The notes beneath the pieces were generated by a model. It had not been told where the DNA came from. It saw only the letters and a program-made list of their open reading frames with translations, and did no database searches. The translations under genes were made by a program, and so were the position numbers. From NCBI GenBank assembly GCA_902786285.1, contig CADABX010000015.1:1-34563 (forward strand): DNA of 34,563 nt, read 5' to 3'. Source of the stretch: Oscillospiraceae bacterium (GTDB lineage: Bacteria; Bacillota; Clostridia; Oscillospirales; Acutalibacteraceae). Of this stretch, positions 4,743 to 10,076 are shown in pieces; the stretch's first letter is position 1; each line of letters starts with the position of its first letter.

Positions 4743-4750
4743 TGCAATGC

Positions 4751-4924
4751 GGAATGCGGAATTCGGAATGCGGAATTGCGGTCGCGGGATTTCGTGCGGC
4801 AATCCGACCTTCTGCGCCGCGGCGCAAGGGATCGGCTGCCGGAAAGGGATCATTTTCCAAAACGGTTTTGGCGCATCGCGCTTTGCGCGGCGCCCATCAA
4901 TTCCGAATTCCGAATTCCGAATTC
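4751..4924. repeat. Inverted-repeat element built from GGAATTC units, between recR and smpB
   Basis: The left arm (4751-4778) consists of tandem CGGAAT[TG]-type units. The right arm (4898-4924) consists of four ATTCCGA-type units and is nearly its reverse complement, and it is trailed by two copies of ATTCATA. About 119 bases lie between, including the perfect palindrome TGCGCCGCGGCGCA and a second GC-rich hairpin. No convincing gene is inside. The arms can fold back on each other, so the element could be a small non-autonomous repeat, and in RNA it would form a long stem. It fills the whole recR-smpB gap and ends about 15 bases before the smpB ribosome binding site. No target-site duplication is obvious. 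Confidence 0.65.
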
Positions 4925-4947
4925 ATAATTCATAATTAGAAAGGGCG

Positions 4948-5429: not shown

Positions 5430-5775
5430 GGGGACGAAAGGATTTCGACGGGGATCCGGAAGCACGAGAAGCGGGTAGTGGTGCGGTACCACTATAAAAA
5501 TCGCAACCTTAAATTGAACTGACAATACTACAGTTTTAAAGGCTGCTTAACGCAGCCCGTCTGTGCGCTGAGGACTGCGGCAGCGTAACAGGCGTCGATC
5601 AGCAGTGAACGTGAACAGCGGAGCGACTCGGCCGCCGTCATGCATCAGGGCCTACTGAACCGCTGAGCCTGTCAACCGGCGCAGCGGGAAGGGAATTGCA
5701 AACGATTGACTGCACCCGGAGAAACTTGTGTGGATGGGTTTTCGGACGCGGTTTCGATTACCGCCGTCTCCACCA
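5430..5775 (+). ncRNA. ssrA: Transfer-messenger RNA (tmRNA)
   Basis: This RNA rescues stalled ribosomes and adds a degradation tag. The 5' GGGGACG pairs with CGTCTCC near the 3' end, giving a seven-pair acceptor stem with the G3-U wobble used by alanyl-tRNA synthetase, then A and an encoded CCA (5773-5775). The T-arm TTCGATT loop lies just before. The tag reading frame ends GCT GCT TAA (5542-5550) inside a GGCTGC/GCAGCC hairpin, the normal place for the tag stop codon. In that frame an upstream TGA (5515-5517) limits the tag to TDNTTVLKAA or, if the resume codon is GAC, DNTTVLKAA after the charged alanine. It ends in LKAA rather than the usual LAA. A strong terminator follows at 5781. I see no promoter of its own. 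Confidence 0.95.
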
Positions 5776-8101: not shown

Positions 8102-9235
8102 ATGAAACAGACTGTCAAACGTTTTTCCACCGTGCTGCTCGCGCTGCTGCTGACGCTGACCATGATCGTGTCGGCTGCGGTGGCGTTTGCCCAAAGCGGC
8201 GTGTTCGCCGAGGAAGCCTACACCGACCTTGTCACATTTTCCGACTGCCAGAGCTTCGGCCCCGGCGCGTTCAACAATTTCGGCAAGGTGCTGCGCGTGA
8301 TGCACGACGACGGTTTGCCGCAGCCGGACGCGCTTTTGGTGGGCGGCGACTATTCGCGACTGCTCAACGACTACGCCACGCCAGGCATCATCCAACTGCG
8401 CGACCAGTATACGGCGGTCTATGAAAACGGCGACCCCGACGCGATCATCACCGCGCAGGGCAACCACGATTCGCGCATCCCGGCGTTTTATCCGACCGGC
8501 ATGTATGACATGGGCACCTACTGCTTCTATCTGATCAACGAGGACGACTATCCGTGGCTGCAGCTTTTACGCACGCAGGGCAAAAAGACGGTTCAGAAGA
8601 CCGCCCAAAACATCAAGACCGCGCTGGACGCCATGATTGAAAACGGCGACACCCGTCCGGTGATCTTCATCACCCATGTGCCGCTGCACCACACCACCCG
8701 CACCCTCGGCGGCGACAACATGTATGCGAAGTATCTGTTCGACGTGATCAACGAGGCGGCAAAACAGCTTGACATCATCTTCCTGTTTGCCCACAACCAT
8801 TCCGGCGACTACGACGATTATATCGGCGGCTCCGTCAACTTTATGGCGCCGGGCGACACCGTGCGCATCCCCGATCCCGACCACCGCAGCGCGGACACCT
8901 ATCTCGAGGAAACGCTGAACTTCACCTATACCAACTGCGGCTATATCGGCTACACCAAAAACAACAACACCGAAACCTCCACCAACGCCCTGACCCTCGG
9001 CGCGATCCGCTTCTTTGCCGACCGGTTCGTCTTCCTGAAGTACACCGAGGACGGCCTGTTCCGGCAGGACACGGTGGAAAGAAAGCACCCCGCAACCGAC
9101 GAACAGATGCAGCAGGCGGCCACAATCAGCAATATGAAGCACAATAACGAACAGGTCTGGAATCTGGAAAAGAAGATTTTCGAACCCATCGTCCGCTTCT
9201 TCCTCAAGCTGCTGGCGCTGCTCGGCGTCAAATAA
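8102..9235 (+). CDS. Secreted calcineurin-like metallophosphoesterase
   Basis: A 377-residue exported phosphoesterase. Residues 1-30 are a clear signal peptide (KR, a long Leu-rich core, then AVAFA). The dimetal site motifs are in order: SDCQ (D48, with Gln50 where His is more common), GGDY (81-84), GNHD (120-123), THVPLHH (around 191-197) and AHNH (230-233). It could cleave phosphomonoesters or phosphodiesters; the substrate is unknown. The C-terminus ends in an amphipathic or hydrophobic helix (about 355-377, FEPIVRFFLKLLALLG), a tail type also seen on two other exported proteins in this window, perhaps for membrane association. AAGGAG precedes the ATG. It is flanked by its own promoter and by a strong terminator at 9249-9284. 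Confidence 0.88.
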   Translation: MKQTVKRFSTVLLALLLTLTMIVSAAVAFAQSGVFAEEAYTDLVTFSDCQSFGPGAFNNFGKVLRVMHDDGLPQPDALLVGGDYSRLLNDYATPGIIQLRDQYTAVYENGDPDAIITAQGNHDSRIPAFYPTGMYDMGTYCFYLINEDDYPWLQLLRTQGKKTVQKTAQNIKTALDAMIENGDTRPVIFITHVPLHHTTRTLGGDNMYAKYLFDVINEAAKQLDIIFLFAHNHSGDYDDYIGGSVNFMAPGDTVRIPDPDHRSADTYLEETLNFTYTNCGYIGYTKNNNTETSTNALTLGAIRFFADRFVFLKYTEDGLFRQDTVERKHPATDEQMQQAATISNMKHNNEQVWNLEKKIFEPIVRFFLKLLALLGVK

Positions 9236-9248
9236 GTTTTTCCCGATA

Positions 9249-9284
9249 AAAAGAAGGTTGACTGTTTTCAGTCAACCTTCTTTT
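9249..9284. terminator. Bidirectional terminator between convergent genes
   Basis: A perfect stem of about 15 pairs (9250-9264 with 9269-9283) has a TTTT loop, A tracts on one side and T tracts on the other. It serves the rightward phosphoesterase and the leftward four-helix-bundle gene, which converge here. Confidence 0.9.
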
Positions 9285-9321
9285 ATGTATCTGCAAATGA
9301 TTGATCCGCTTTTTGGAGCGT

Positions 9322-9666
9322 TTATTTGTTGTTTTTAGCGGTGTTTACAGAAGCAACCAATAATCTGCGTATGGTTCCACACTGATTGAATAACAGTTTT
9401 GTTGTCGCTTCGTTCAGAAAACCGGCTTTTTGAAAAAGTTCCAACCAGTATTCCGTTTCATAAGTTTCCTTCAGGGCGATTTGTAGTTTTGATATAAAAT
9501 CCGCTTTGCTTTGGGCGTAATTGGCTTCGCGAATATTTGCGCCGATGCTTGTTGAAGAACGCTCGATCTGATTTACAAGTGCATAGTGCCCTTTGATTGC
9601 GTCAACTGCGGATAATACAGCAACGGAAAAATTCATGGATAAATCAATCAGCTTGTTTTCTCTCAC
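9322..9666 (-). CDS. Four-helix-bundle protein of the S23/IVP (23S intervening-sequence protein) family
   Basis: A 114-residue, all-helical protein resembling the family first found in 23S rRNA intervening sequences, and sharing its fold with the Avd accessory protein of diversity-generating retroelements. Recognisable elements are the opening LIDLSMNFSVAV, the central QIERSSTSIGANIREANYAQSKADF and ALKETYETEYWLELF, and a final helix ending in NTAKNNK. I start it at GTG 9666, eight bases after GGAG; a longer in-frame ORF runs back through the hairpin array and is probably not translated. The gene is visibly more AT-rich than its neighbours, suggesting horizontal acquisition. It is not inside an rRNA gene. 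The function of free-standing members is not established; RNA binding is a guess. The hairpin array at 9696-9855 ends only 30 bases before its start. Confidence 0.82.
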   Translation of the reverse strand: MRENKLIDLSMNFSVAVLSAVDAIKGHYALVNQIERSSTSIGANIREANYAQSKADFISKLQIALKETYETEYWLELFQKAGFLNEATTKLLFNQCGTIRRLLVASVNTAKNNK

Positions 9667-9695
9667 AATACCACTCCATAAACAAGTTTGATGAA

Positions 9696-9855
9696 ATATT
9701 GCTATCGCAATATGAAATAATTTGCTGCGGCAAATTGTGAAATATCTCGCTGCGCTCGATATGAAGTGAAATGAATCCTGCATACGCCGCAGGCGTATTT
9801 CATTGCTTAGCAATTTCATATTCTGAAAGAATATTTCTTGAATCCGCAAGGATTC
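9696..9855. repeat. Array of seven short, different hairpins separated by GAAAT/ATTTC spacers
   Basis: Seven inverted repeats follow each other: 9696-9713, 9719-9736, 9742-9762 (imperfect), 9782-9798, 9802-9814, 9818-9834 and 9840-9855. Most have 5-7 pair stems and 3-4 base loops. Stem sequences differ from one hairpin to the next (for example ATATTGC/GCAATAT, AATTTGC/GCAAATT, ATACGCC/GGCGTAT). The constant part is the spacer: GAAAT between the first three and TTTC(A), its reverse complement, between the last four, so the array is itself roughly symmetric about 9763-9781. GAATCC (9773-9778) can also pair with GGATTC (9850-9855). It is not a CRISPR, since the palindromes vary and the spacers are constant and only about 5 bases. 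It lies directly upstream of the S23-like gene. Confidence 0.85.
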
Positions 9856-9893
9856 ATTTCATGGAAGGACCTTCCTTGTGGACGGTCTTTCGC

Positions 9894-10076
9894 TCAAAAC
9901 CGGCGGTCGCGCGGGACGCGGTCGGTGATCTTGTTAAAGATCCGGTGCAGCACGAACATCAGCTTGTTGTCGAGGTTCAGCCAGTAGACCGCCTGCAAAA
10001 CACCGAACACGAGCGTACCTGCCGCGAGCAGAACGCCAAGCAGTTTTATCAGTAACAAGAGAATCTTTTTCATCAT
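9894..10076 (-). CDS. Small single-pass membrane protein at the end of the dehydratase operon
   Basis: I do not recognise this 60-residue protein. It begins MMKKILLLLIKLL, has one strongly hydrophobic segment (about 5-32) and a short basic tail (ITDRVPRDRRF), so it is probably a single-pass membrane peptide with a cytosolic C-terminus. AAGGAGG lies a few bases before the start, which supports real translation; the second Met codon at 10073 is an alternative start. It begins ten bases after the stop codon of the 512-residue dehydratase-family gene and is the last gene of that leftward operon. It might tether the soluble enzyme to the membrane, but that is only an inference. Confidence 0.6.
   Translation of the reverse strand: MMKKILLLLIKLLGVLLAAGTLVFGVLQAVYWLNLDNKLMFVLHRIFNKITDRVPRDRRF

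Follow-up and report, generated by a model that had tools for sequence, protein, structure and literature searches.

Why should a run of small hairpins, each different from the next and joined to it by a nearly constant short word, stand directly upstream of a gene for a small helical protein? The question is raised by a contig of an Oscillospiraceae bacterium (CADABX010000015.1, assembly GCA_902786285.1), analysed here over a stretch of 34,563 nucleotides that we call the window; the genome is referred to as G000. A sequence-only reading of the window had described such an array beside an S23/IVP-like gene and had proposed that the two form a compact mobile or RNA-based unit. To our knowledge, proteins of this family (PF05635, 23S_rRNA_IVP) are widespread and have no assigned function.

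Anatomy of the array and its gene

The protein encoded in the window matches PF05635 at 85.5 bits against a cut-off of 33.8, which bears out the family assignment made from the sequence, and it matches TIGR02436 at 94.5 bits (cut-off 24) and the solved homologue 2rld with an E value of 3.2e-22. PF05635 is the sole family matching the gene at E 0.01, and no catalytic family is among the matches. The array is real, and its position, first given as 9666-9860, is corrected to 9691-9875 on the minus strand by a gapless hand parse on the S23 sense strand, placed by script. The features of the unit are as follows.

9322..9666, minus strand: S23 / 23S_rRNA_IVP four-helix-bundle gene, 114 aa, GTG start (PF05635, TIGR02436, 2rld)
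9691..9875, minus strand: hairpin-decorated inverted heptamer array, whole
9863..9875, minus strand: outer 13-nt palindrome GGAAGGTCCTTCC, adjoining the end of the upstream gene (hand parse)
9797..9862, minus strand: first half of the array, four marks (ATGAAAT 9856-9862, AAGAAAT 9833-9839, ATGAAAT 9813-9819, ATGAAAT 9797-9803) with hairpins between them (9840-9855, 9820-9832, 9804-9812) (hand parse)
9773..9796, minus strand: hairpin 9784-9796 and 11-nt turn 9773-9783, site of the orientation flip (hand parse)
9691..9772, minus strand: second half of the array, four reverse-complement marks (ATTTCAC 9766-9772, ATTTCAC 9737-9743, ATTTCAT 9712-9718, ATTTCAT 9691-9697) with hairpins between them (9744-9765, imperfect; 9719-9736; 9698-9711) (hand parse)
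9249..9284, no strand assigned: perfect 16-bp inverted repeat, 3' of the S23 gene, possibly belonging to the unit

On the S23 sense strand the order is thus the palindrome, four times a spacer with its hairpin, the 11-nt turn, and four reverse-complement spacers with hairpins. The parse returns the seven hairpins counted earlier, to which the outer palindrome is added, and the flip in spacer orientation noticed halfway along the array appears as the change to reverse-complement spacers after the turn. The spacer had been taken as a constant 5-base GAAAT; GAAAT is indeed the constant core, and the spacer is better read as a heptamer around it, because the parse is then gapless and the length is that of the plain heptamers in related units; a spacer of 5 nt between longer stems is possible too. 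Each half-array has four clear marks, against a commonest count of five per arm in the survey described below. The intact S23 gene begins with its GTG 24 nt past the end of the array, which is therefore directly upstream as stated before, the gap having been given as 30 bases. Array and gene are AT-rich in a GC-rich setting, as was also claimed (GC 0.384 and 0.397, respectively, and 0.575 for the window). The RNA fold of 9660-9900 on the sense strand has z = -4.38, and none of 200 shuffles is as stable. A consensus scan of 9230-9960, which takes in the sequence before the window S23 gene, detects no promoter-like site. The inverted repeat at 9249-9284 may be a terminator; it is absent from the terminator-like sites found by a scan.

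The S23 homologues 2rld and 2gsc are each listed with five chains in the PDB, and PMC4990558 cites the Xanthomonas protein as a homopentameric toroid. S23 is probably a ring-forming protein.

The window site in relatives

On the minus strand the unit is preceded by a 550-aa gene and a small gene, both conserved in relatives. The S23 gene and the array are missing after these genes in all seven relatives with a readable flank (L124-L129 and L131, judged by eye; 457 bases are left in L125); the sequences of L130 and L132 end before the position of the unit. The gene on the other side of the window unit is not a neighbour at this place in the relatives examined, and for that reason the site demonstrates absence rather than an exact empty junction.

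Other S23 units and S23-less arrays in the same genome

Four PF05635 matches are present in G000, all adjoining distinctive repeats by eye, and one of the genes is truncated. The canonical S23 copy (L001) is flanked on either side by tandem heptamers; in L002 the left-hand heptamers are of GGAATTC type and those to the right are their complement; the truncated gene (L004) is preceded by a hairpin array with a GTGATAT-type spacer; and the window copy is of the ATGAAAT type (first three judged by eye).

Arrays equally common far from S23 genes had been named as a finding that would speak against a link, and in part such arrays are found. In 400,541 bases of G000, picked to take in all S23 contigs, 21 period-7 arrays were detected, four in S23 units and 17 away from S23. 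Several of the S23-less arrays are inverted pairs about 150-240 bp apart with a GGAATTC heptamer, and some have the end sequence of L002. The window contains one such pair, with a right-end sequence resembling that of L002:

4746..4937, no strand assigned: S23-less inverted pair of plain heptamer arrays, AATTCGG type (4746-4776 and 4899-4937; period-7 scan)

Because several have ends in common with an S23 unit of the same genome, we read the arrays away from S23 as S23-less derivatives of S23 units, which S23 itself may have moved.

Repeats beside S23 genes in the genus and order

PF05635 is present in 30 of 39 genomes of the genus and order, G000 included. Of 102 PF05635 hits, 94 S23 units (93 loci, one with two units) were analysed and eight were left out. 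A scan for periods 4-15 over approximately 340 nt upstream and 300 nt downstream of S23 detects period 7 in 50 of the 94 units, period 14 in 39, and no other period in any; far-flank controls give 10 of 164 at period 7, three at period 14 and one each at periods 6 and 11, and shuffles give none. An inverted-array test, which calls for an exact 6-mer at least three times together with its reverse complement at least three times, either on opposite sides of the gene or one after the other on the same side, is passed by 59 of the 94 units, among them the window unit as class U (TGAAAT at least three times, then its complement at least three times). Of 784 control placements over 380 kb of G000, in stretches containing S23 units, 3 pass the same test, and of 1880 shuffles none does. 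By one or other of these strict tests, 73 of the 94 units have repeat arrays, in keeping with the suggestion that arrays would recur beside S23 homologues. Among the 21 units failing both tests, some have arrays by eye (L004, L018, L029, L061) and several do not (L032, L084).

Four architectures can be distinguished by eye. Plain heptamer arrays, inverted and flanking the S23 gene, are the commoner form. Plain heptamers also occur with both halves upstream of S23 (e.g. L027, L050, L062), hairpin-decorated arms occur flanking S23 (e.g. L052, L087, L089, L090), and decorated arrays with both halves upstream are found in the window and in L046, L049, L051, L053, L067 and others. In the branch to which the window belongs, successive heptamers are thus separated by a short hairpin of free sequence, and the two inverted half-arrays both stand upstream instead of flanking the gene. 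Three cases are intermediates joining the array forms: L104, an S23-less array of G000 at about 18.6-18.9 kb, has plain heptamers outside and hairpins inside, and in L069 and L020 S23 stands between two direct copies of a palindromic array.

The proposition that spacers in decorated units are always exactly 7 nt is not upheld. A raw, uncontrolled count over all units of hairpins that exactly occupy the interval between two copies of a word does not favour 7 in particular, giving for spacer lengths 4 to 11 the values 13, 72, 22, 118, 39, 128, 47 and 110; the counts at 9 and 11 largely repeat that at 7, because a stem shortened by one pair adds 2 to the spacer.

At several loci (L034, L048, L055, L059 and several of L139-L148) a hairpin by the left arm overlaps the preceding gene's stop codon, giving the impression of an inverse copy of that gene's end; such a hairpin was met once without an S23 unit (L147).

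Distribution across bacteria

A scan of named genomes with the canonical S23 alignment confirmed at least 577 relatives, and the best 80 loci were analysed. Period-7 arrays are present at 60 of these 80 and period 14 at 52, other periods occurring 0 to 2 times; far flanks have 8 in 146. With phyla assigned from record titles, period-7 arrays among the best 80 loci extend over about a dozen phyla, as follows (arrays/loci).

Bacillota 20/25; Bacteroidota 16/18; Chloroflexota 5/6; Verrucomicrobiota/Kiritimatiellota 4/4
Acidobacteriota 3/4; Planctomycetota 3/5; Hydrogenedentota 2/2; Deltaproteobacteria 2/2
Cloacimonadota 1/1; Pseudomonadota 1/1; Cyanobacteriota 1/1; Spirochaetota 1/2; CPR 1/5
Fibrobacterota 0/2; Synergistota 0/1; phylum not named 0/1

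With the window protein as query, matches are found in 29 of 299 genomes of its phylum, and of 29 loci examined 19 have arrays and 10 fail; two of the 19 are also in the genus and order set. One canonical S23 protein gives no match in 50,697 phage records.

Matching arms and orientated marks

Arms were compared in the 37 units having both above threshold, units with one arm being left out and L069 being dropped for its doubled arms. The left arm matches the reverse complement of its own right arm with a mean of 0.875, against 0.541 in direct orientation and 0.563 for the right arms of other units; the inverted match is better than the direct one in 37 of 37 units, and none of 2000 permutations reaches the mean. 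The heptamers differ between units, while the arms within one unit match. When each left arm is ranked against all right arms, its own partner comes first in only 21 of 37 units, because similar heptamers are common to many units.

The marks were analysed in 80 named loci and 11 genus loci, which yield 62 left and 58 right canonical arms at threshold. AG is common to the canonical heptamers (A 0.90, G 0.99) and keeps one orientation with respect to the gene; the pooled heptamer information is 4.88 bits, compared with a mean of 3.29 when unit orientation is randomised and 2.92 when columns are permuted. The in-phase AG marks per canonical arm have a mode of five (49 of 120 arms), with four in 10 arms, six in 24 and none in nine. 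In the other clusters AT marks were counted, again with a mode of five per arm (27 of 63), four in 17 and none in 12.

Filled and empty sites

Searching plasmids with a canonical S23 protein gives 30 matching records, most of them cyanobacterial, and the first four plasmid S23 loci examined have heptamers on both sides in every case. At four places on Nostocales plasmids, plain-heptamer units have been gained or lost as pieces of about 0.4-0.5 kb. Site 1 is empty, reading ...AAAAAGTAAT/TAACAAATA..., in L253, L254 and L262 (97.9, 97.7 and 97.7% identity over matched parts), and is filled in L252 and L255, where heptamers, S23 and heptamers stand directly behind the stop codon with TAAT on both sides. 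The insert in L252 is 428 bp, the left arm in L255 is two heptamers shorter than that in L252, and L256 retains the left arm and a stretch resembling the S23 start. Site 2 is filled in L249 and L250 and empty in L257 and L258, less cleanly, with about 12 host bases replaced. Site 3, between a stop codon and the next start, is filled in L260, L261 and L270 and empty in L263-L266, and site 4 is filled in L259 and empty in L267-L269 with an inexact junction. No constant target-site duplication is seen over sites 1-4, TAAT being present at site 1 and nothing clear elsewhere. All of this filled and empty evidence comes from plain-heptamer units on cyanobacterial plasmids, the decorated form not being among them. 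On three of the Nostoc plasmids (L264, L266, L270), S23-less heptamer elements have been inserted repeatedly in the gap between the first two complete genes.

The gap between serS and glyA was examined in 15 of 30 genomes of the window's genus. An S23 unit is present there in G000, G011, G015, G019, G043 and G018; G009 and G006 have a heptamer array lacking S23, of which one arm was seen in G009 and two in G006; others, e.g. G012, G022 and G003, have neither or a mere trace. The right heptamer arm in L146, downstream of serS, contains a further nested insert, which has short inverted ends of its own.

Among 27 pairs of S23 proteins at least 80% identical, 19 have no detected flank homology, some of the flanks being short and at contig ends. 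The decorated units L049 and L053, from different families of the order, are 92.9% identical and both have GTGAAG. A spacer or heptamer word is common to 15 of 21 unlinked S23 pairs with identities of at least 75%, compared with 73 of 784 pairs below 45%; this sharing of words between related units would already follow if gene and array had descended together as one unit. The earlier proposal of a compact mobile unit accordingly stands for the general kind, arrays with S23 being mobile by the evidence of the serS-glyA gap, the plasmid sites and the unlinked pairs, and it needs widening in that the hairpin form is just one of four architectures.

A probable mobile unit, and the alternatives

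We consider it rather probable that array and S23 gene together represent one of the copies of a small mobile (selfish) unit, which has inverted heptanucleotide arrays as its ends and S23 as its sole gene, and in which a pentameric S23 ring would bind the marks on a single strand. This reading draws on the anatomy of the units, their recurrence beside S23, the matching of their arms, the filled and empty plasmid sites of plain-heptamer relatives, and the S23-less relatives in G000. The coincidence of five marks with five subunits suggests that one subunit reads one mark, although a mode of five could simply be the typical array length. TRAP is a ring that binds RNA at evenly spaced marks, one per subunit. 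In a similar manner a pentameric S23 ring would bind about five marks per arm, spaced 7 nt apart on one strand; the likeness to TRAP lies in this proposed reading of evenly spaced marks, which we infer for S23, whereas the fold and the subunit number differ. Single-stranded DNA or RNA is the presumed substrate because hairpins alter the spacing of marks on a duplex and leave it unaltered along a single strand from which they are looped out; hairpins would thus be tolerated, the marks staying 7 nt apart. With inverted arms, each DNA strand would have one site near its 5' end, and a pair of rings might grip the two ends of the unit during its copying or insertion by enzymes of host replication or repair.

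The arrays might instead be a regulatory RNA of S23 itself, the protein binding its own transcript to control translation or stability, with gene and operator being passengers of ordinary recombination. The strong RNA fold of the window array, the position of upstream heptamer arms in flanking units, which end about 9-136 nt before the matched S23 domain, and the resemblance of AG-type marks to those of RNA-binding rings such as TRAP would all fit such a role. An operator does not account for the equivalent arm downstream of the gene in flanking units, nor for S23-less inverted heptamer pairs elsewhere in the genome with ends in common with an S23 unit; moreover, plain-heptamer units are cleanly missing from close relatives, and the arrays of several decorated units, the window unit not among them, seem by eye to lie upstream of promoter-like sequence. 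On balance we judge a purely regulatory array unlikely.

It is also improbable, in our estimation, that the arrays are independent small repeats mobilised in trans by a host enzyme, S23 being a passenger that survives inside. Many arrays lack S23, no catalytic family matches the S23 gene, related arrays have been inserted repeatedly in one intergenic gap (L264, L266, L270), and the four Y1_Tnp matches in G000 could act in trans. Against a mere passenger, arrays are kept beside S23 across phyla, their heptamer core and its orientation being linked to the gene, and related S23 proteins have words in common without detected flank homology. Neither candidate enzyme is associated with S23: Y1_Tnp occurs in 17 of 30 S23-positive and 4 of 9 S23-negative genomes, and reverse transcriptase (PF00078) in 6 of 30 and 3 of 9, respectively.

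The sequence-only reading had also linked the protein to Avd of diversity-generating retroelements, a link that comes down to family resemblance: the L001 protein weakly matches Avd models below their cut-offs (PF22296, 28.7 of 40 bits; NF033474, 24.9 of 80), the window protein matches none at E 0.01, and PF00078 has no match in G000 (a genome about 90% complete) and does not track S23 in relatives. A diversity-generating retroelement is therefore rejected, and a part for S23 acting with reverse transcriptase on the hairpin array is very improbable and largely refuted for G000, where a reverse transcriptase in the missing part of the genome or outside PF00078 would revive it.

To return to the mobile unit, a wider form of it is attractive and more tentative, and we would sooner expect it to fail than to hold in full: S23 units may be a phylum-wide class of minimal mobile elements without a recognisable transposase, in which each end is read as a single strand by a pentameric ring that counts about five marks at heptad spacing; the rRNA intervening sequence (IVS) would be a copy that landed in rRNA, many unexplained heptamer repeats would be remains, and the hairpins of the window would betray the reading of a single strand. 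Such units would explain both a protein family without known function and many unexplained repeats. The tie between S23 and inverted heptamer arrays provides testable substrates for the PF05635 family and connects rRNA intervening sequences to repeats found between genes in many phyla; it points to mobile elements that may move without a nuclease of their own, and the hairpin-decorated form is a natural experiment on single-strand reading by S23.

Comparison with known systems

RAYT genes adjoin REP-BIME palindromes that carry a constant tetranucleotide tag, are inverted within a cluster and have many gene-less copies. The likeness to the units described here lies in the gene beside short palindromes with a constant tag, the inversion and the gene-less copies; the gene here is S23 and not an HUH nuclease, and the arrays have period 7 rather than a tetranucleotide tag. 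Identity with RAYT/REP is rejected, as the window gene matches PF05635 alone and Y1_Tnp does not track S23. A CRISPR array is likewise rejected, in agreement with the earlier reading, the constant parts being about 7 nt and the variable parts palindromes, in place of long identical repeats with unique spacers.

Cyanobacterial STRR and SDR repeats are tandem heptamers and hairpin repeats embedded in heptamers, and Beggiatoaceae have tandem TAACTGA heptamers between genes (PMC4679880); tandem intergenic heptamers, and hairpins within heptamers, are what these have in common with the present arrays. A link of the Beggiatoaceae repeats with S23 is not seen in PMC4679880, from which the terms '23S', 'four helix' and 'intervening' are absent.

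The nearest kin of S23 units is the IVS of Coxiella 23S rRNA, which looks like the same anatomy inside rRNA (PMC4990558): it is 428 nt long with 28-bp pairing ends and one S23 ORF, has tandem heptamers upstream of the ORF in a number varying between strains, and is termed a selfish element by its authors. IVP ORFs also occur in CPR rRNA insertions, according to PMC11270868. The S23 ORF is shared with the units studied here, and complementary ends with heptamers surround it in the 37 flanking units that have both arms; the window has both inverted halves upstream. The IVS is situated within rRNA and excised by RNase III, and the heptamers described for it stand upstream of the ORF; the present units are intergenic, have inverted arms, and occur also as decorated forms and S23-less copies. 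The open literature searched, which is weak evidence because it leaves out most subscription papers, yielded no description of a general association of S23 with heptamers outside rRNA; heptamers beside S23 were met there in PMC4990558. Against the known S23-bearing intervening sequence, what seems to be new is that the association is general outside rRNA, that the heptamer arms are inverted, and that a decorated form and S23-less copies exist.

A location of the window unit inside an rRNA gene is rejected, an Rfam search at gathering thresholds finding no rRNA in the window; nor was any found in the 20 searched of the 80 named-genome S23 loci. Rfam places a tmRNA gene at 5430-5775 and a small SRP RNA gene at 1872-1971 of the window.

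G000 also carries a second repeated palindromic family, of TGTAGCGCCGATCAGTGATCGGC and CCCCAACGCGCACTGCGTGCGCTGGGG types, at L095 11551, L096 8699, L103 14752 and 15090, L105 11040 and L111 448.
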